Positions 697 to 59,397 of a DNA stretch of 64,000 bases are shown here, piece by piece. How positions within the stretch are numbered: the stretch's first letter is position 1; each line of letters begins with the position of its first letter. Where the stretch lies: positions 62,001-126,000 of the forward strand of contig JAUIHT010000009.1 of assembly GCA_030432235.1 (NCBI GenBank). The letters are read 5' to 3'. This stretch comes from Verrucomicrobiia bacterium. GTDB taxonomy: Bacteria > Verrucomicrobiota > Verrucomicrobiia > Opitutales > Cerasicoccaceae. The notes beneath the pieces were generated by a model that was not told the origin of the DNA, ran no database searches, and saw nothing but the letters and a program-made list of their open reading frames with translations. A program made the translations under genes and the position numbers.

Positions 697-735
697 CGGA
701 TTGAAGATTTAAGATGGTAGATTTCAGATTGGATA
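697..735. repeat. heptad tract, AATCTGA-like family
   Basis: A run with 7-nt periodicity upstream of the DUF2730-like gene. Read on the minus strand its units resemble AATCTGA and AATCTTC. It begins with the same 13 nt (CCAATCTGAAATC) as the tract inside rnhB at 59099-59133, so the two belong to one repeat family. It is one of two tracts in the short gap between phage-like genes. Confidence 0.65.
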
Positions 736-8085: not shown

Positions 8086-8098
8086 GAAAAGGGTGTTT

Positions 8099-8165
8099 TA
8101 GTGCTTGGTGCTTAGTGCTTAGTCAGGCTGCGAGTCAAATAGGAACCAAGCACCAGGCACTAACT
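8099..8165. repeat. inverted heptad-repeat hairpin between gmd and fcl
   Basis: Left arm 8099-8123 is built of units TAGTGCT and TGGTGCT. The right arm 8143-8165 is the inverted form with units CACCAGG and CACTAAC. Together they would form a stem of about 20 bp with a 19-nt loop in the gmd-fcl message. It occupies most of the 87-bp gap between the genes. Confidence 0.7.
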
Positions 8166-11283: not shown

Positions 11284-11670
11284 ATGTTCGCGTTCTTTTG
11301 GGTATTCAGCGCCACGATGGCGCTCGGTGTGTTCCTCATAGCCTCCATCTATCGCGGGACCCCCTTCGGCCGGTATCAAAAACCGGCTTTGGCGTACGGC
11401 ATTGTCAGCTTCTTCGCTTACGTCGGTGGATGTATCTTTGCCAATCGCATGGAGCCACTCGAAGTGGAACAAGCTTTCCCGCTTCACTCCATCGTCCAGC
11501 TCCTGACCAGCTTTGACCGCACCCTGAGCCCGATGGAAATCCAACTGGTCAGCGTCCAGTATGGTGGCCTGCTGCTCTTCGCGGCCCTGCCGGCGGTACT
11601 GCTTTATGCAGCTCTCGAACTCTATCGTGTACGCAGCCTGTCACCAACGGTGCAGGAGCACGAAGCCTAG
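11284..11670 (+). CDS. small membrane protein of unknown function
   Basis: About 128 residues, starting at the ATG at 11284 behind AGAGGTGA; a GTG at 11269 is also possible. Three hydrophobic segments are visible: 'FWVFSATMALGVFLIASI', 'ALAYGIVSFFAYVGGCIF' and 'GGLLLFAALPAVLLYAAL'. No family is recognised. It follows the esterase-like gene closely and its last bases overlap the convergent dapL stop. Confidence 0.6.
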   Translation: MFAFFWVFSATMALGVFLIASIYRGTPFGRYQKPALAYGIVSFFAYVGGCIFANRMEPLEVEQAFPLHSIVQLLTSFDRTLSPMEIQLVSVQYGGLLLFAALPAVLLYAALELYRVRSLSPTVQEHEA

Positions 11671-12914
11671 AACCCGAACTGGTAATCTGCCAGGCGCTTG
11701 CCGATTTCGGCGATGACTTCCTTTTCGGCGGCCTCGCCCTTGGCGGCGAAGGTGACGCTGAAGCGCACGAAGTGCCCGGCGTCGTCCCAGGGAACGGTGC
11801 TGATGAGCAGCTCGCGGATGAGGAACTGCGAAAAAGCCTCGCCGTCGGCGAATTCCACCTTGGTGCCGTCGGGCTTGACGGCGGCCTTGGGGGCAGCGGT
11901 GTAGAGGAAGAAGCTGCCCTTGGGCTTCTTGGCGTCGAAGCCGGCGGCCTTGAGCACCTCCACCAGCAGGTCCATGCGGCGCGAATACTTGGCGGCGATT
12001 TCCTCCGTGATGCCGGGGTTGGCCAGCGCGGCGACACCGGCCTTCTGAATAGCCAGGAACTGCCCGGAGTCGCTGTTGTCCTTCACGTCGCCGTAGGCCT
12101 TGACGATAAGCTCGTTGCCGCAGACCCAACCGAGGCGCCAGCCGGTCATATTGAAGCCCTTGGAGAGGGAGTGCAGTTCGACCGCCACGTCCTTGCCGCC
12201 CTCGACCTGGAGGATGGAAATGGGCTGGCCTTCGAAGATGAGCGCCGAGTAGGCGGCGTCCTGCAGGACGACGAGGCTGTGCTTCTTGGCGAAAGCGACG
12301 ACCTTCTCGAAGAACTCCCGCGTGGCGGAGGCGCCGGTGGGGTTGTTCGGGTAATTGATGACCAGCACCTTGGCCTTGGCCAGGATGTCAGCCGGGCAGG
12401 AATCGAGGTCGGGTAGGAAGTTATTCGCAGCAGTAAGCTGATAGTTAAAAACCTCGCCGCCGAAGTACTTGGCGTGGGTACCGAAGACCGGGTAGCCCGG
12501 TGTGGTCATGAGCACATACTCGCCGGGATTGACGAAGCAGGCGGGCAAAATCGAGAGCGCGGCCTTGCTGCCGATGGAGTGCAGGACCTCCTTTGACGGG
12601 TCGAGCTTCACGCCAAACACCTTGTCCATGTAGGCAGCCACGGCAGTCTTGAAATCCGCGCCGCCGTTGTCAGCGTAACCACGGTTAGCCGGGTCGTTAG
12701 CAGCCTCGGTCAGCGCGGCGACGACCTCGGGGAAGGCCATCTCGTCAGGCTCGCCCACGCCCATGTCGATGAGGGCCACGTCGGGCTTTTCGGCCTTGGC
12801 CGCAGCCTTGGCGCGCTTGATCTTCTCGAACTTGTAAATAGCGGTGGACTTGCCGTAGTTCACCCCGCCGATGCGCTCGGCGAACAACTGCTGGATATAG
12901 GATTCGTCTGACAT
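11667..12914 (-). CDS. dapL: LL-diaminopimelate aminotransferase / class I aminotransferase
   Basis: A 415-residue PLP enzyme starting at 'MSDESYIQQLFAERIGG'; the frame opens further upstream but overlaps the divergent gene. Fold-type I features are 'GVGEPDE' and 'NYPNNPTGA' (substrate and cofactor binding) and the Schiff-base lysine in 'HSLSKGFNMTGWRLGW'. 'ADNGGADFKTAVAAYM' resembles DapL, which makes LL-diaminopimelate directly from tetrahydrodipicolinate and is common in Verrucomicrobiota. Related aminotransferases share these motifs, so substrate assignment is strong but not certain. Confidence 0.85.
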   Translation of the reverse strand: MSDESYIQQLFAERIGGVNYGKSTAIYKFEKIKRAKAAAKAEKPDVALIDMGVGEPDEMAFPEVVAALTEAANDPANRGYADNGGADFKTAVAAYMDKVFGVKLDPSKEVLHSIGSKAALSILPACFVNPGEYVLMTTPGYPVFGTHAKYFGGEVFNYQLTAANNFLPDLDSCPADILAKAKVLVINYPNNPTGASATREFFEKVVAFAKKHSLVVLQDAAYSALIFEGQPISILQVEGGKDVAVELHSLSKGFNMTGWRLGWVCGNELIVKAYGDVKDNSDSGQFLAIQKAGVAALANPGITEEIAAKYSRRMDLLVEVLKAAGFDAKKPKGSFFLYTAAPKAAVKPDGTKVEFADGEAFSQFLIRELLISTVPWDDAGHFVRFSVTFAAKGEAAEKEVIAEIGKRLADYQFGF

Positions 12915-24053: not shown

Positions 24054-24809
24054 TCAGTCCCAGACCGGCTTAAAATCCTCGGCGGATACCCACCCGCTCT
24101 TGCCGTCGGTTTCGACAAAGTAGAAATCACCGTGGTGACGCTCGACGAAGGCGGACTCGCCGGGCTTCAGGTAATCCTTGGCCGGTGCGCTGCTGGTGGG
24201 TGAAAGCTTCAGGGCAGCCTCCTCGGCCACGGACACGCCGAGCCTACCAAGGCGATGATAGCCCGACAGTGCCACCGCACAGACGACGAACAACACCCCC
24301 GTCAAGGCCACCGCGGCCTTGCGCAGAGGGCCACGCCAGCCCCACATACCCGGCAGCAGCACCAGGGCCAGGCAGGCCCAGAAACTCACCGCTCCCAGCC
24401 AGGCCCAGCAGTTGACCGGCCAGGCCAACGCCAGGCGCTCCGCCCAGTTCAACTCCGGCGAGGTGACCTGCGCGGCATCACGCGCCAACTTCAGATTGGC
24501 GCGGATGTCCGGATTGGCCGGGGCCAGCACACGGGCGCGCTCGTAGTGCAGAATCGCCATGGGATAATCGCCCAGCTCGTATTCGGCATTGCCGAGGTTG
24601 TATAGCAAAGCGGCGGAACGATAATCAGGCACGAGCTGAGTGTACACCTCGACCGACTTTTCGTATTCGCCCGACTCGAAAGCGGCGTTGCCCTCGGCAA
24701 ACACACCCGCCGGATCGCTGACCTCGGCTCGGCAGACGACGGCCATCACCAAGCCCAGGATAATTAACCATCCCTTGACCCTTGACCCTTGACCTTTGAC
24801 CAATCTCAT
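24054..24809 (-). CDS. BatE-like TPR protein with SH3-like C-terminus
   Basis: A 251-residue envelope protein. A signal-like N-terminus is followed by TPR repeats (about 35-115, 'GNAAFESGEYEKSVEVYTQL' and 'GDYPMAILHYERARVLAP'). Two membrane segments come next (about 130-175) and then an SH3-like end ('GESAFVERHHGDFYFV', 'GKSGWVSAEDF'). TPR proteins of this kind end Bat operons. It overlaps the batD stop by 4 bp. Its first residues ('MRLVKGQGSRVKG') are encoded by a 7-nt repeat tract. Confidence 0.8.
   Translation of the reverse strand: MRLVKGQGSRVKGWLIILGLVMAVVCRAEVSDPAGVFAEGNAAFESGEYEKSVEVYTQLVPDYRSAALLYNLGNAEYELGDYPMAILHYERARVLAPANPDIRANLKLARDAAQVTSPELNWAERLALAWPVNCWAWLGAVSFWACLALVLLPGMWGWRGPLRKAAVALTGVLFVVCAVALSGYHRLGRLGVSVAEEAALKLSPTSSAPAKDYLKPGESAFVERHHGDFYFVETDGKSGWVSAEDFKPVWD
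24766..24802. repeat. heptad tract (CCCTTGA family) within a gene start
   Basis: Units CCCTTGA and CCTTTGA repeat with a 7-nt period. The tract lies wholly inside the first codons of the TPR gene, and in-frame reading on the minus strand gives the basic n-region of its signal sequence. Only one arm is present, with no inverted partner nearby. Confidence 0.65.
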
Positions 24810-29148: not shown

Positions 29149-29583
29149 GAGAAAATGAAAGATAAACGATAAAAGATGAAAGATGAAGTTACTTGGATTT
29201 ACGCTTATGAACTGTCCTGATGGAAGCTACGAATATAGCAGTTAACTGACTGGCCTCCTCCAATAAAGGTAATAACCGCTTCTCCTGAAATACCTCACCT
29301 CGGACAAGCAATTCGAGCCAATACGAAGTTTCATCCAACTCTTGTAGCGCGCTATTGAGTTTACTAATAAATTCCGCATCTGAACGCGCGCGGTGAGCCT
29401 CCCGCTGTTGAGCTCCAACGGATGTACCAGAACGCAGAAGTTGCTTTCCAAGAGTCTGCGCAACGGTGTTTTTTGGCAACGATGCGTAGAGTTTGACGAT
29501 GCGCAACGAGAACATCATCAAACGCTCCTGAATATCAGGCGACTTCATCTCATCTTTCATCTTTCTGCGTTCTGCGTTCATCA
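29149..29583 (-). mobile_element. four-helix-bundle element 1 with inverted heptad termini
   Basis: The segment fills the gap between the batA stop and the batB/C start. Its ends are inverted heptad arrays: left arm 29151-29190 (AAAGATG units) and right arm 29544-29582 (the same unit on the other strand plus GAACGCA). The only content between the arms is a four-helix-bundle gene. The structure resembles the intervening sequences of some 23S rRNA genes, which also carry S23-type genes between inverted ends. Mobility is inferred; no target-site duplication is obvious. Confidence 0.6.
29189..29581 (-). CDS. four-helix-bundle protein (S23/IVS-type), copy 1
   Basis: A 130-residue protein starting at 'MNAERRKMKDEMKS', an ATG sharing its A with the batA stop (TGATG coupling); a later start 'MKSPDIQERLM' is also possible. 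The core 'MMFSLRIVKLYASLPKN', 'LGKQLLRSGTSVGAQQREAHRARSDAEFISKLNSAL' (split here for length) and 'ELDETSYWLELL' is diagnostic of the four-helix-bundle family found in 23S rRNA intervening sequences and related to Avd of retroelements. The function is unknown. Residues 1-11 are encoded by the heptad terminus. GC content is below that of the operon. A second copy lies at 32223. Confidence 0.85.
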   Translation of the reverse strand: MNAERRKMKDEMKSPDIQERLMMFSLRIVKLYASLPKNTVAQTLGKQLLRSGTSVGAQQREAHRARSDAEFISKLNSALQELDETSYWLELLVRGEVFQEKRLLPLLEEASQLTAIFVASIRTVHKRKSK

Positions 29584-30615: not shown

Positions 30616-31238
30616 GAGCCGCCTCCTTCCATCTGGCGTTGCTCACGCAAGCGGCGCTGCGCCTGCTCGACAAACTCCTTCGCGGTTACGAGCAGTTGAT
30701 CGCGTTCTTCCGGCCCAAAGGCATGACGCGCGAACTTGGCCAGGTCGCACAGCTCCAGAAACGCGCCAAGCGTTATTAATGCTTCCTCCGAAATGCGTGG
30801 GTGGCTGCGGGCGTTGGATAAAAACTCCTCGGTGGTCTGCTCCGGCGCACGAATGCGGAAGACGGCTTCGATGTAGTTGCGCAGGGCGTTGGAAACCGCG
30901 ATGGAAAAGGCCTTGTCGTCGCCACCGTCCTTGAGGCGGGAAGCTTCGGCGATTTCCTTCATGGCGCGCTGATAGGCCGTCAACGGCTTCTCAGGTTTGC
31001 GGCGCAGGGCGAAGAAAGCCGCGATGCCCGCAACGACAAGCACACCCACGATCACGGGCACGGCCCACTGCCAGTTGGCCTCCCAGAAACCCGCCCCACG
31101 CATGGGGCGAATATCGAGGATGTCGTCATCCCCGCTTTGCGCGAACAAGCTGAAAGCAAAAAGCTGAAAGCTGAAAGTGGTAATTAACCAGCTTGGCTTT
31201 ATGCTTTGAGCTTTAAGCTTTAAGCCCTCACGTCTCAT
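30612..31238 (-). CDS. DUF4381 family membrane protein
   Basis: A 208-residue protein with an N-terminal signal peptide (about 1-34), then 'DILDIRPMRG', one membrane helix (about 50-72, 'WAVPVIVGVLVVAGIAAFFAL') and a cytosolic helical domain with 'FSIAVSNALRNYIEAVFRI', as in DUF4381. These proteins sit between DUF58 and VWA genes in Bat/MoxR operons. Both ends overlap neighbours by 4 bp. Unusually, the whole signal peptide is encoded by an inverted heptad-repeat hairpin (31144-31228). Confidence 0.85.
   Translation of the reverse strand: MRREGLKLKAQSIKPSWLITTFSFQLFAFSLFAQSGDDDILDIRPMRGAGFWEANWQWAVPVIVGVLVVAGIAAFFALRRKPEKPLTAYQRAMKEIAEASRLKDGGDDKAFSIAVSNALRNYIEAVFRIRAPEQTTEEFLSNARSHPRISEEALITLGAFLELCDLAKFARHAFGPEERDQLLVTAKEFVEQAQRRLREQRQMEGGGS
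31144..31228. repeat. inverted heptad hairpin encoding a signal peptide
   Basis: Read on the coding (minus) strand, the first arm has units AGCTTAA and AGCTCAA. A loop of about 13 nt follows, and then the second arm with units CTTTCAG and CTTTTTG. The arms are imperfect inverted copies. The first arm gives the charged residues 'GLKLKAQSIK' and the second gives the hydrophobic 'TFSFQLFAFSLF' of the DUF4381 protein. Confidence 0.8.
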
Positions 31239-32164
31239 CGCCTCGACCCCCTTTTCTCGAAATACATGCGCAACGGGTTGATGTAAGGCTCGTCCGTGGA
31301 GACCGGCATGACGCCCACGCCGCTCTGGCGCAGCCCCCGGCGGAGGTTGTCGATGCGGCGGCGGTTCTCCTTGGCATAGGACTGGCGCAGGGCGCGACTG
31401 CCGGTGTTCAGCTCGACAAGCTGCCCCGTCTCGGAGTCCTCCAGGGTGAGCACGCCGACGTCGGGCAGCTCGACCTCGCGGGGATCGGTCAACGTGATGC
31501 AGGTCAAGTCGTGGCGCTTGTTGGTCAACCGCAATGTGCGAAAGACGGCATCACCGCGGCGATCACCGGGATCGGGCAGACGTCCATCGGGCCCCTGCAG
31601 GAAGTCCGTCAGCAGGAACATGATGGCCTTGCGCTTGAGCATACGATTGGCCGTCTCGAGCGCCTCGACGATGTTGGTTCCCTTGCCCTTGGGCTCGAAG
31701 AAAAGTATCTCGCGGATGACGCGCAGGATGTGCTGGCGGCCTTTCTTGGGCGGGATAAAGGTCTCCACCTCGTCGGTGAAGAGCAGCAGCCCCACCTTGT
31801 CGTTGTTGCGCGTGGCGGAAAAGGCCAGCACGCTGGCGATTTCCGCGGCCAGCTCACGCTTGGACTCGTGCGTGGAACCGAAGCCACCCGAGGCCGAGAG
31901 GTCCACCAGGAGCATGATGGTCAGCTCGCGTTCCTCGCGGAATTTTTTGATGAAGGGCCGGTCCATCTTGGCGGTGACGTTCCAGTCGATGGCACGCACG
32001 TCATCGCCGGGGGCGTATTCACGGACCTCCTCGAAGTCCATCCCCTGCCCTTTGAACACGCTGTGGTAGGCCCCCGTCAGCGCATCGGTGACGAGGCGAT
32101 TGGTGCGGATTTCGATCTGCCGCACCTTGCGAAGAATCTCGCGCGTTTTATCTGTATTATTCAT
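31235..32164 (-). CDS. DUF58 domain protein
   Basis: A 309-residue VWA-like cytosolic protein. The DUF58 signature 'YAPGDDVRAIDWNVTAK' lies near residues 50-66, preceded by 'DALTGAYHSVFKGQGMDFEEV'. The degenerate metal-site strand is 'MLLVDLSASG'. It ends with 'MYFEKRGSRR'. DUF58 proteins are partners of MoxR ATPases. The start codon touches the terminus of four-helix-bundle element 2, so it is separated from moxR by that element. It overlaps the next gene by 4 bp. Confidence 0.92.
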   Translation of the reverse strand: MNNTDKTREILRKVRQIEIRTNRLVTDALTGAYHSVFKGQGMDFEEVREYAPGDDVRAIDWNVTAKMDRPFIKKFREERELTIMLLVDLSASGGFGSTHESKRELAAEIASVLAFSATRNNDKVGLLLFTDEVETFIPPKKGRQHILRVIREILFFEPKGKGTNIVEALETANRMLKRKAIMFLLTDFLQGPDGRLPDPGDRRGDAVFRTLRLTNKRHDLTCITLTDPREVELPDVGVLTLEDSETGQLVELNTGSRALRQSYAKENRRRIDNLRRGLRQSGVGVMPVSTDEPYINPLRMYFEKRGSRR

Positions 32165-32631
32165 TAACGCTTAACGCTAAATGCTTAACGCTGAGAAAGG
32201 TTAAACAAACATTTCAATCACTTCACGATTCACCCTTTTTGAGGGTTCGAATACTGGCAATGAACATCGCCATAATTTCACCGGATTCATCATACAAAGA
32301 CATCAGCTTTTCTGGTTTTACTATGTCGGCTTCCATGAGTAGCTCCATCCAGTACTGGGTTTCATCAAGTTCCTGTTGTCCGCCTTCCAGTTTGCTAATC
32401 ATTTCCTTGGTTGATCGCGCTCTTTGAGACTCCCGGTAGTGGGCGCCCACGGAAGTTCCAGAGCGCAAAAGTTGTTTTCCCAATACCCTCGCCGCGCTTC
32501 CCTCTTTTTCTAAAGAGACCGCCAACTTAATAATGCGAAGTGCAAATTGTTTCGTTCTCTGTTTCAGATCGCTAGACATGATTACAGCTTCTCTTACAGA
32601 ATCAGCGTTTAGCGCTTAGCGTTAAGCGTTA
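32165..32631 (-). mobile_element. four-helix-bundle element 2 with inverted heptad termini
   Basis: The element lies between the moxR stop (32633-32635) and the DUF58 ATG (32162-32164), filling the gap to within one base. Left terminus 32165-32194 and right terminus 32602-32631 are inverted copies; both begin with the same 15 bases, AACGCTTAACGCTAA, read inward and from the right end inward on the other strand, and both end in ACGCTGA. Units have a 7-nt period. Inside is one four-helix-bundle gene. The repeat sequence differs from that of element 1, although the layout is the same. Confidence 0.65.
32223..32579 (-). CDS. four-helix-bundle protein (S23/IVS-type), copy 2
   Basis: A 118-residue paralogue of the protein at 29189. 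Shared diagnostic blocks are 'FALRIIKLAVSLEKE', 'VLGKQLLRSGTSVGAHYRE', 'RARSTKEMISKL', 'ELDETQYWMELL' and a 'MFIASIRTLKK' ending. The two copies differ at many positions, so they are not a recent duplication. It lies between inverted heptad termini in the moxR-DUF58 gap. The family includes proteins of 23S rRNA intervening sequences; its function is unproven. Confidence 0.88.
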   Translation of the reverse strand: MSSDLKQRTKQFALRIIKLAVSLEKEGSAARVLGKQLLRSGTSVGAHYRESQRARSTKEMISKLEGGQQELDETQYWMELLMEADIVKPEKLMSLYDESGEIMAMFIASIRTLKKGES

Positions 32632-48770: not shown

Positions 48771-48886
48771 AAAGCAGAAAAATAAACGATGAAAGATGAA
48801 GTCAAGAGGACGATAGGGGGCACGTGCTGGGTGAAGTGTCTTTTCATTTCATCTTTCATCTTTCTGCTTTCATCTTTCATTTCGGC
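48771..48886. repeat. inverted heptad hairpin encoding a signal peptide
   Basis: Left arm 48771-48812 has AAAGATG and AAAGCAG-type units. Right arm 48841-48886 has TCATCTT and TCTGCTT units and is the inverted form. The start codon of the next gene lies inside the left arm. In frame, the left arm gives 'MKDEVK' and the right arm gives 'LFISSFIFLLSSFIS', together a signal peptide. Confidence 0.8.
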
Positions 48887-56975: not shown

Positions 56976-56996
56976 ACCACAACCACTGATTTCATG

Positions 56997-57068
56997 AACC
57001 ACGGAAGACACGGAAATACACGGAAGGAAAGTATTGGTTTTCCGTGTATTTCCGTGTCTTCCGTGGTT
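56997..57068. repeat. 29-bp perfect inverted repeat with 14-nt loop
   Basis: Arms 56997-57025 and 57040-57068 are exact inverted copies. Each arm is itself built from CACGGAA repeats with a period of 9-10. It lies between trpA and the sigma-54 activator. The RNA would form a very stable stem, suitable as a terminator-like barrier or RNase III site. CACGGAA-type repeats recur in related genomes as I recall; this is not checked. Confidence 0.85.
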
Positions 57069-57086: not shown

Positions 57087-58583
57087 ATGCGCCTCTTCAC
57101 CCCAGCCGACGCCAAGAAGGCCAACGCCATCGCGAAGCTGGTCTGGCTGAATCCCTTCACCGGGGAGCGGCATCCCATCGAGCGCAAGCTGGTCGGCGTG
57201 CCCGGTGAGGGCCCGCTGCCGATTAAGGATTTCAAAAAGCTGCTGGCCATGCCCCGCGAGTTGCTCCAGCCGGCGCGAACGCAGCTCATGCAGCCCGGTG
57301 GCAAGAACGCGGAGGACTTCGCCATCTATCAGGAGGTCGTTTTCTTCGAGCTCTTCCACGCCTTCGTGGCCGACTATGACAAGCTCATCGTCGAGGCGCA
57401 CGACCGCGGCGCCGCCACCGGGCGCGTACGCTTCTACGACCAGTTCGAGCGCGAGGTAAACCACTGGATGCCCGGCGGCTTCGGCGGAGAGTATTCGGGC
57501 TTTCCCACCGCACGGCTCTTTGCCGTCTTTTTCCAGATTCGGCGCGCCTACTACCACATCATTCATTACATCGTGGGCAGCTCCACCGCGCACCGGCGGC
57601 TGCGCGCGCGCATCTGGCAGAGCATCTTCACCCGCGACATGGAGCGCTACCAGCGCGCCCTGACCGAGCGCCTCGGCGACGTCATCACGCTCATCACCGG
57701 GCCCAGTGGCTCCGGCAAGGAGCTCGTGGCGCGCGGCATCGGCCTGTCCCGCTTCATCCCCTTCGACTCGACTACGCGGGAGTTTTCCGAGGACTTCATC
57801 CGCGCCTTCTACCCGGTCAACCTCTCGGCGCTCTCGGGCAACCTCATCGAGTCCGAGCTCTTCGGCCACCGCAAGGGCGCCTTCACCGGCGCGCTGCACG
57901 ACCGCAAGGGCTACCTCGAAACCTGCGGGCCGTACGGCACCGTCTTCCTCGACGAGGTGGGCGAGACCGAGCCGACCATCCAGGTCAAGCTCCTGCGGGT
58001 TTTGCAGACGCGGCAGTTCACCCCCATTGGCGACACCGAGCCGCATCCCTTCCGCGGCAAGCTCATGGCCGCGACCAACCGCGACCTGCCCGCCGAGATT
58101 CGCGCCGGGCGCTTCCGTGAGGATTTTTATTTCCGCCTCAACGCCGACCGTGTCGAAACCCCTGCCCTCGGGGACATCCTGGCGGAGGAACCCGGCGAGC
58201 TGGAGCGCCTCGTGGCCTTCATCTCCGAGCGCCTGGCCGGCTCGGAAGGGCCCGCCCTCACCGCTGAGACCTGCGACTTCATCCGCAACCAACTGCCCTA
58301 CGACTACGACTGGCCGGGCAATTTCCGCGAGCTTGAGCAGTGCGTGCGCAACGTCCTGCTGCACGGCGATTATCAACCACAGGATTTGAGGCGACAGCCC
58401 AAGGGCCAGCCGGAGTGGCAGCAGCGTTTCGCCGAAGGTGGCTACACCGTGGACGAACTGCTGCGCGCCTACATCACACCACTCTACGACAAGACACCCA
58501 ACTACGAGGAGCTCGGACGCAAGCTTGGCATCGACCGCCGCACCGTGAAGAAGTATGTCGGAGAAGCCGCCGATGGCGACTGA
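57087..58583 (+). CDS. sigma-54-interacting transcriptional activator
   Basis: A 498-residue AAA+ activator. Residues 1-195 form an N-terminal domain I do not recognise ('LVWLNPFTGERHPIERKLVG' near the start). The AAA+ part has Walker A 'GPSGSGKE', the sigma-54 contact loop 'GAFTGA', Walker B 'VFLDEVGE' and the arginine-finger region 'FREDFYFRLNAD'. The C-terminal Fis-like helix-turn-helix is 'NYEELGRKLGIDRRTVKKYV'. There is no receiver, GAF or PAS sensor, so the N-terminal domain is probably the input. Targets are unknown. Confidence 0.9.
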   Translation: MRLFTPADAKKANAIAKLVWLNPFTGERHPIERKLVGVPGEGPLPIKDFKKLLAMPRELLQPARTQLMQPGGKNAEDFAIYQEVVFFELFHAFVADYDKLIVEAHDRGAATGRVRFYDQFEREVNHWMPGGFGGEYSGFPTARLFAVFFQIRRAYYHIIHYIVGSSTAHRRLRARIWQSIFTRDMERYQRALTERLGDVITLITGPSGSGKELVARGIGLSRFIPFDSTTREFSEDFIRAFYPVNLSALSGNLIESELFGHRKGAFTGALHDRKGYLETCGPYGTVFLDEVGETEPTIQVKLLRVLQTRQFTPIGDTEPHPFRGKLMAATNRDLPAEIRAGRFREDFYFRLNADRVETPALGDILAEEPGELERLVAFISERLAGSEGPALTAETCDFIRNQLPYDYDWPGNFRELEQCVRNVLLHGDYQPQDLRRQPKGQPEWQQRFAEGGYTVDELLRAYITPLYDKTPNYEELGRKLGIDRRTVKKYVGEAADGD

Positions 58584-58658
58584 AGCTCAAAGCAAAAAGC
58601 TGAAAGCTTTCCTCTCCGTACGCGTCTTTAGCTTTGAGCTTTTTGCTTTCAGCTTTTA
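58583..58658. repeat. inverted heptad-repeat hairpin before rnhB
   Basis: Left arm 58583-58610 and right arm 58626-58658 are inverted copies made of AAAGCTC/AAAGCTG and TTTAGCT/TTTGAGC-type units. They lie exactly between the activator stop and the rnhB start and use the same unit family as the hairpin at 31144-31228. Confidence 0.75.
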
Positions 58659-58668
58659 ACTAGCGGCA

Positions 58669-59397
58669 ATGTCTGACTCCGCTCGCAGAAGCTCCCTCTG
58701 GGCCCACGACGCGACCCTTTGCCATAAGGGCGTACCCTCCCTCATCGGGGTCGACGAGGCCGGGCGGGGAGCGCTGGCCGGGCCGGTCATGGCGGCGGCG
58801 GTCTTTGTGGAGGCTACTTTTTTCGAAAGCCGGGAAGCGCAGTCCGAGGCCGTGGCCATCAACGACTCCAAGCAACTCAAGGCCGAAGACCGCGAAGCCC
58901 AGCACACACTCATCCTCGGCTGGCGCGAACGCGGGCTCATCCGCTGCGCCTGGGCTGAGGGCTCTGTCACGGAGATCGAAACATTAAACATCCTCGGGGC
59001 TACCCGTTTGGCCATGCAGCGCTCACTCGAAGGATTGGGCATGCCCTTGCCAACCCCCGAAGGCGACATGCCTCTTTTTCAGTCGGATAGTGCAAACCAA
59101 TCTGAAATCCGAAATCTAAAATCTAAAATCATTGTCGATGGCCGCCCGCTCAAACCTTTCCCCTACCCGCATCAGGGTCTCGTCAAAGGTGACGGTACGA
59201 GCCTGTGCATTGCGGCGGCATCCATCCTCGCGAAGGTCGAGCGCGACCGTCTGATGAAAAAGCTGTGCACGCAGCATACCGGCTACGGGTTTTCCCGTCA
59301 CAAAGGCTACGGCACTACCGAACACCGCGACGCGCTCGCCCGCCTCGGCCCCTGCCCCGAACATCGGAAGCTTTTTTTAAGGAAGGTACTGGGCTAA
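58669..59397 (+). CDS. rnhB: ribonuclease HII with heptad-encoded insertion
   Basis: A 242-residue RNase HII that removes ribonucleotides from RNA-DNA duplexes. Active-site acidic residues are visible in 'GVDEAGRGALAGP', 'INDSKQLK'-adjacent sequence, 'IIVDGRPL' and 'TTEHRDAL'; 'IAAASILAKVERD' is diagnostic. Between the helix ending 'LGMPLP' and the 'IIVDG' strand there is an extra loop of about 25 residues. Its last part, 'NQSEIRNLKSK', is encoded by heptad repeats (59099-59133). The core is intact, so activity is likely retained. Confidence 0.93.
   Translation: MSDSARRSSLWAHDATLCHKGVPSLIGVDEAGRGALAGPVMAAAVFVEATFFESREAQSEAVAINDSKQLKAEDREAQHTLILGWRERGLIRCAWAEGSVTEIETLNILGATRLAMQRSLEGLGMPLPTPEGDMPLFQSDSANQSEIRNLKSKIIVDGRPLKPFPYPHQGLVKGDGTSLCIAAASILAKVERDRLMKKLCTQHTGYGFSRHKGYGTTEHRDALARLGPCPEHRKLFLRKVLG
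59099..59133. repeat. in-frame heptad tract inside rnhB
   Basis: Five units of the AATCTGA/AATCTAA type. The first 13 bases equal those of the intergenic tract at 697-735 read on the other strand. The tract keeps the reading frame of rnhB and encodes a polar surface loop. Confidence 0.8.

Follow-up and report, generated by a model that had tools for sequence, protein, structure and literature searches.

A degenerate seven-base repeat tract in a variable loop of RNase HII, in a Verrucomicrobiia genome with an excess of period-7 repeats

The window, that is, the whole stretch of 64,000 nucleotides that was analysed, carries an intact rnhB gene for ribonuclease HII (58669..59397, + strand, 242 amino acids). 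The identification rests on the profile cut-off, the invariant acidic residues and the fold: the protein scores 187.4 bits on NF000595, for which the curated cut-off is 167, and is also matched by PF01351 in the profile search; residues D29, E30, D157 and D175 are conserved among relatives; and the predicted fold resembles T. maritima RNase HII and solved RNase HII structures (Foldseek E-value of 3.6e-16 to 3o3g). Asp157, which is invariant and catalytic by homology, belongs to the motif IIVDG and has its codon at 59137..59139 (+). Among the window proteins at the rnhB end, RnhB was the only one that matched the stretch around rnhB in the nearest relative, G001. Directly before the gene lies a paired repeat element (58583-58658). 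Its A-rich heptad arm of the AAAGCNN type (58583..58608, +) starts at the stop codon of the preceding gene, its T-rich arm of the GCTTTNN type (58630..58655, +) ends about 13 bases before the start codon of rnhB, and the inverted repeat is 92% complementary.

A further period-7 tract is found inside rnhB (59099..59130, +). It is 32 bp long and consists of 4.6 copies of AATCYRA (AATCTGA, AATCCGA, twice AATCTAA and a final AATC), with a GC content of 0.25 vs 0.61 for the whole gene. The tract codes for residues 144-154, QSEIRNLKSKI, in the sole forward frame that is free of stops; the other two contain TAA. The original prediction had placed it at 59099-59133, with the peptide NQSEIRNLKSK. The tract is real and is indeed translated in frame, but its strictly periodic part ends three bases earlier, at 59130, and N143 precedes the periodic peptide. 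Also as predicted, 13 bases are common with the tract at 697..735 (-), which is likewise degenerate and has the same heptad type: CCAATCTGAAATC, at 59097-59109, recurs there reverse-complemented and nowhere else in 1.26 Mb. Because both tracts have one heptad type, this shared 13-mer by itself is no proof of copying; it reflects the shared type and does not show copying or movement. There is no second heptad arm in RnhB, only the single tract.

Compared with T. maritima RNase HII, the protein has 26 extra residues between aligned blocks (residues 126-151; 59044..59121, +). By motif count, the loop at the same place is 19 to 57 residues long in the relatives from the same order vs 44 here, and some of them have longer loops than the present one (L016, L017, L023 and L024). 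No heptad tracts were found in the RnhB loops of these order relatives, and the sequence of the loop is not conserved between genera. Against G001, which is about 67% identical and reads LFQ-DEQNSNPD-ILVDG in this region, the net gain is 7 residues, which corresponds to 21 bp or three heptads. An insertion of about 25 residues had been claimed, and in comparison with T. maritima this is correct. The claim nevertheless overstates the insertion: most of it is an older loop of variable length, shared without heptads by relatives from the order, and only about 7 net residues accompany the tract. A conserved loop without repeats in related proteins had been named as the finding that would speak against the claim; a repeat-free loop is present in the relatives, yet its sequence is not conserved, so that this objection applies in part.

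Structure modelling had also been proposed, and we built a model with AlphaFold from an alignment that included 25 further RNase HII sequences; its mean pLDDT is 89.5. The tract falls into a low-confidence stretch between a helix (residues 100-122) and the IIVDG strand (152-157) with the catalytic Asp at its end; residues 131-150 have a pLDDT of 53-55. The loop is thus predicted to be flexible, and the low model confidence together with its place between helix and strand suggests that it is solvent exposed. Conceivably, selection favoured the extra residues because they allow RNase HII to bind something new, such as a partner in replication or transcription. While the residues are close to the catalytic Asp in sequence, and several members of the order have long loops here, the loop is not conserved between genera, it is predicted to be flexible, and any A-rich heptad array would encode residues of this kind. 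We therefore consider an adaptive loop very improbable. Since the loop of the relatives varies, the net gain is 7 residues and the pLDDT is low, the tract has lengthened a loop that varied already, and this is tolerated.

Next, we asked how common such tracts are. There are six strict period-7 tracts in the window, as compared to none for periods 4-6 and 8-14 and none in shuffled sequences. In 1.264 Mb of the genome we counted 61 period-7 tracts vs 0-12 for the other periods from 5 to 13; for period 14 there were 28, double units included. The period detector was run on about a fifth of the genome, and the pattern searches covered all 42 contigs. The density is 48 tracts per Mb here, a value that is somewhat high because roughly 0.5 Mb of the scanned DNA had been selected for pattern hits, vs 0-5.6 per Mb in sampled genomes of the same family; the first 464 kb, which were not selected in this way, already contain the period-7 excess. 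Single types behave similarly. The GCTTTNNGCTTTNNGCTTT type is matched 65 times here, vs 3 times in the reversed control. The nine other genomes of the family have no match, none of the 176 scanned order relatives has more than 5, and elsewhere in the phylum carriers are few and scattered. The four-unit CTTTNNN pattern has 100 matches vs 7 in the control. Period-7 tracts are therefore more frequent than expected by chance, and one genome holds several unrelated heptad types of which relatives have none or few. These counts support the view that the rnhB tract belongs to a genome-wide family of period-7 tracts that differ in sequence.

The tracts are strongly depleted from genes: only 13 of the 61 touch a called gene, although 87% of the DNA is called coding (the gene calls come from a home-made caller based on codon usage, adequate for such tallies and not for exact starts). 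Their arrangement between genes is far from random. Among the arrays that are clearly nearer one gene, A-rich intergenic arrays adjoin the left gene and T-rich arrays the right gene in a ratio of 51:7 (p about 2e-9), whatever the direction of the genes. Where CTTT-type arrays oppose each other less than 200 bp apart, the A-rich array always precedes the T-rich one (20:0 across the genome). The window itself gives several examples, all on the + strand. An A-rich arm of the AAAGATG type (29152..29187) lies 3 bases from the left gene, and its TTTCATC-type partner (29550..29579), 362 bp away, lies 1 base from the right gene; one compact element (31147-31225) has an A-rich AAAGCTG arm (31147..31177) and a T-rich GCTTTNN arm (31196..31225); and an A-type TAACGCT arm (32164..32192) is the partner of a T-type AGCGTTT arm (32604..32631). 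Intergenic tracts of the TGCTTAG (8098..8123) and CCCTTGA (24772..24801) types occur as well, and close to the tract at 697..735 there is a T-rich TTTCATC tract at about 773-800. The two arms of one element share their type in 17 of 22 paired elements, chosen by eye, vs 8.1 expected. On the other hand, in GCTTT-type elements the own arms match no better than swapped arms (19.2 vs 19.6), and the loops of 25 elements have no mutual similarity beyond chance 12-15-mers. At L108 we see two nearby elements (11449-11535 and 12147-12233) with near-identical arms, different loops and similar flanks.

Could the arrays be functional hairpins or protein-binding sites, such as terminators or RNA-processing sites, with the rnhB tract as a stray copy? 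Only a few bases do separate the elements from the ends and starts of genes, and most paired elements have a low predicted folding energy, for which the z-scores are indicative only, as they refer to mononucleotide shuffles. However, elements are equally common in divergent gaps (18 of 153) and convergent gaps (8 of 102), the arms of an element do not keep their base pairing, and the relatives do without the elements. A terminator role is not favoured, because elements also occur between divergent genes; a perfect hairpin was rejected, since same-type arms can be exchanged for one another. An Rfam search of the window gave no match at the gathering score. Altogether, such a function seems quite doubtful to us.

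Repeats of other kinds are present too. At 56994-57068 of the window, just upstream of a gene at 57087, there is a large inverted repeat of CACGGAAGA/CACGGAAATA units with a period of about 9-10; a pattern search found similar CACGGA units, with 12 matches, at several other places in the genome and none in 400 kb of G001. Degenerate eight-base tandem repeats surround rnhB in two relatives (L003:1443-1493 and 2228-2331; L004:1380-1415), with the units AAATCTAC and, with an inverted partner, GTTTGAGA. We rejected these octads as a parallel system, because they are not enriched in those genomes. In G001, a TCACTTC heptad tract is located just after rnhB (L002:2242-2275).

It had been predicted that the repeats enter essential-type coding sequence. 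This holds for the genome: heptad arrays have entered several housekeeping genes in frame, and for four of them relatives show the empty site. The Der/EngA GTPase (L035:10062-11768, -) has about 67 extra residues in its second GTPase domain, between switch I and DTAG; this insert contains two A-rich heptad arrays of different type and is absent from all 11 relatives compared. A LysA-like decarboxylase (L114:15851-17230, +) has about 35 added residues, in frame, which the relatives are without; Mfd (L123:3166-6579, -) extends about 16 residues beyond its nearest relative through an in-frame heptad segment; and YfbK (L119:5441-8434, +) has roughly 20-25 added residues in its C-terminal domain, again without counterpart in relatives. 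In the latter three the added segment has the form arm-loop-arm. Single heptad tracts occur in the linker of MutL (L143:6908-8806, -) and in the thumb of a PolX-family polymerase (L039:12841-14637, +). For rnhB the prediction fares less well. Since the gene is usually non-essential (rnhB mutants of E. coli are viable), it makes a weak example, and Der is the stronger one.

The peptides follow from the composition of the arrays. A-rich arrays encode hydrophilic peptides such as ESRKSKV, KAESRKLKAE and ESQKLKAES, while T-rich arrays encode ISSFIFLLSSFI-like peptides, which we found at two apparent signal peptides. Both tracts are located right at the beginning of secreted or outer-membrane proteins. 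One is in the window, a T-rich tract of the TTTCATC type (48847..48880, +) that gives ISSFIFLLSSFI; the other, also T-rich (L138:19374-19455), encodes FQLSAFSFLLTSC. From their sequences, both segments look like the hydrophobic part of a signal peptide.

A second explanation is a mobile palindromic element, the arrays being terminal inverted repeats of short units, as in the Rickettsia palindromic elements, which would integrate in intergenic DNA and at times in frame, and the RnhB tract a lone remnant arm. The convergent pairs seen everywhere (20:0), the arm-loop-arm segments in the LysA-like decarboxylase, Mfd and YfbK that relatives lack, and the patchy occurrence across the phylum would fit with this. 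But no sequence is common to the loops, the heptad types differ between elements, same-type arms are interchangeable rather than conserved ends, Y1 transposases do not track the repeats, and RnhB has no second arm. We hold a mobile element to be unlikely. As to particular systems, REP/REPIN (RAYT) was rejected, since Y1_Tnp is found in 11 of 19 genomes, heptad-poor relatives included. Copies of a Rickettsia palindromic element or MITE would share their element sequence, and these do not (the 25 loops are unlike and the arms differ in type).

We compared the repeats to known systems. Xanthomonas contains heptads of the GGGAATC type, and Nostoc contains similar repeats. They are mostly intergenic, with many convergent pairs, and have the purine-rich strand nearer its 5' gene for any gene direction; quadruplexes are discussed there and the idea of a polymerase footprint is cited (Rehm et al. 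2015, PMC4692102). The present repeats are alike in their period of 7, in a conserved core with variable positions and in being mostly intergenic, and also in the period-7 excess (61 vs 0-12), the pairs (20:0) and the orientation (51:7). They differ in that one genome holds several unrelated, mostly AT-rich types without G-runs, and in that paired segments are also found in frame inside conserved proteins. Furthermore, heptads between divergent genes amount to 8-7% in Xanthomonas (PMC4692102), whereas divergent gaps are not avoided here. The quadruplex core GGGANTN does not occur among our types, whose cores are CTTT, GCGTT, GATTT, ATCCC and similar, and the tracts from the 1.264 Mb scan contain no GGG runs except in the rare ATCCC type (GGGAT). 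Since the types are mostly AT-rich and without G-runs, quadruplexes cannot be the reason here.

In the P6b stem of the Nostoc tRNA-Leu intron (PMC3488679), degenerate heptads of variable copy number form opposing hairpin arms. Our elements share the degenerate heptads, of variable copy number as well, in two opposing, pairable arms; unlike this single intron locus, they are dispersed genome-wide and their pairing is not kept base by base. The TAACTGA direct repeats of Beggiatoaceae have one exact unit, are almost never inverted and, where coding, are mainly at protein ends (MacGregor 2015, PMC4679880). Like the present repeats, they have units of seven bases, are specific to a lineage, border genes or in some cases lie in reading frames, and occur patchily across phyla, whereas here there are many types, usually in convergent pairs, and also inside conserved domains. 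The nearest precedents for translated repeats are two other systems. Rickettsia palindromic elements, families of about 150 bp with shared sequence (reviewed in PMC10969869), are likewise palindromic and contribute translated, in-frame segments to housekeeping proteins; in contrast to them, there is no shared core here, and RnhB has a single arm. The tandem repeats of archaeal Borgs are perfect, with units divisible by three in reading frames (PMC9879509). As here, they are A-enriched and genome-specific, intergenic as well as in reading frames, and give flexible protein segments. On the other hand, every unit here has seven bases, and the frame is preserved only by the length of the insertion as a whole. 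In summary, the layout is the known, unexplained one of Xanthomonas and Nostoc, and the several unrelated, mostly AT-rich types are new.

How did the rnhB tract arise? We think that it rather probably stems from a mutational process, specific to this lineage, by which degenerate seven-base tandem repeats are created and extended, and that it has been tolerated; its function in RNase HII is probably small or absent. Such a process would make and lengthen the repeats mostly in intergenic DNA, and in rnhB it would have acted on the length-variable loop before the IIVDG strand. The tract could be retained there as its three heptads (+21 bp) keep the frame, the gene is already read in the sole forward frame without stops, and translation of the A-rich strand puts hydrophilic residues into a flexible loop, whose neutrality we infer. 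The generator may be slippage with occasional template switching; seven-base units would be gained and lost repeatedly, and selection would remove most coding cases. Arms of the same type with inexact units and unlike loops point to local growth and decay and not to the copying of one element. Slippage alone does not explain the strict order of A-rich and T-rich arrays (20:0) or same-type partners that are 362 bp and more apart, and the new arm-loop-arm segment in the LysA-like gene looks, from its sequence, like a single insertion. A bolder version is that a hitherto unrecognised process of DNA synthesis or repair with a fixed seven-base step writes oriented arrays at gene edges, A-rich one way and T-rich the other way, largely independent of sequence and occasionally in frame inside proteins. 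We put this forward with little confidence. If it were true, the orientation rule common to AT-rich and G-rich arrays would belong to the process and not to quadruplexes.

Taken alone, the RnhB case is minor. The repeat segments translated in Der, Mfd, the LysA-like decarboxylase and RNase HII can be seen as a small natural experiment on the tolerance of protein loops. Heptameric repeats of bacteria are known and yet unexplained, and here the same layout rule is found with mostly AT-rich types. That unrelated AT-rich types follow the same layout argues against quadruplexes as its reason and points to a shared generating process.
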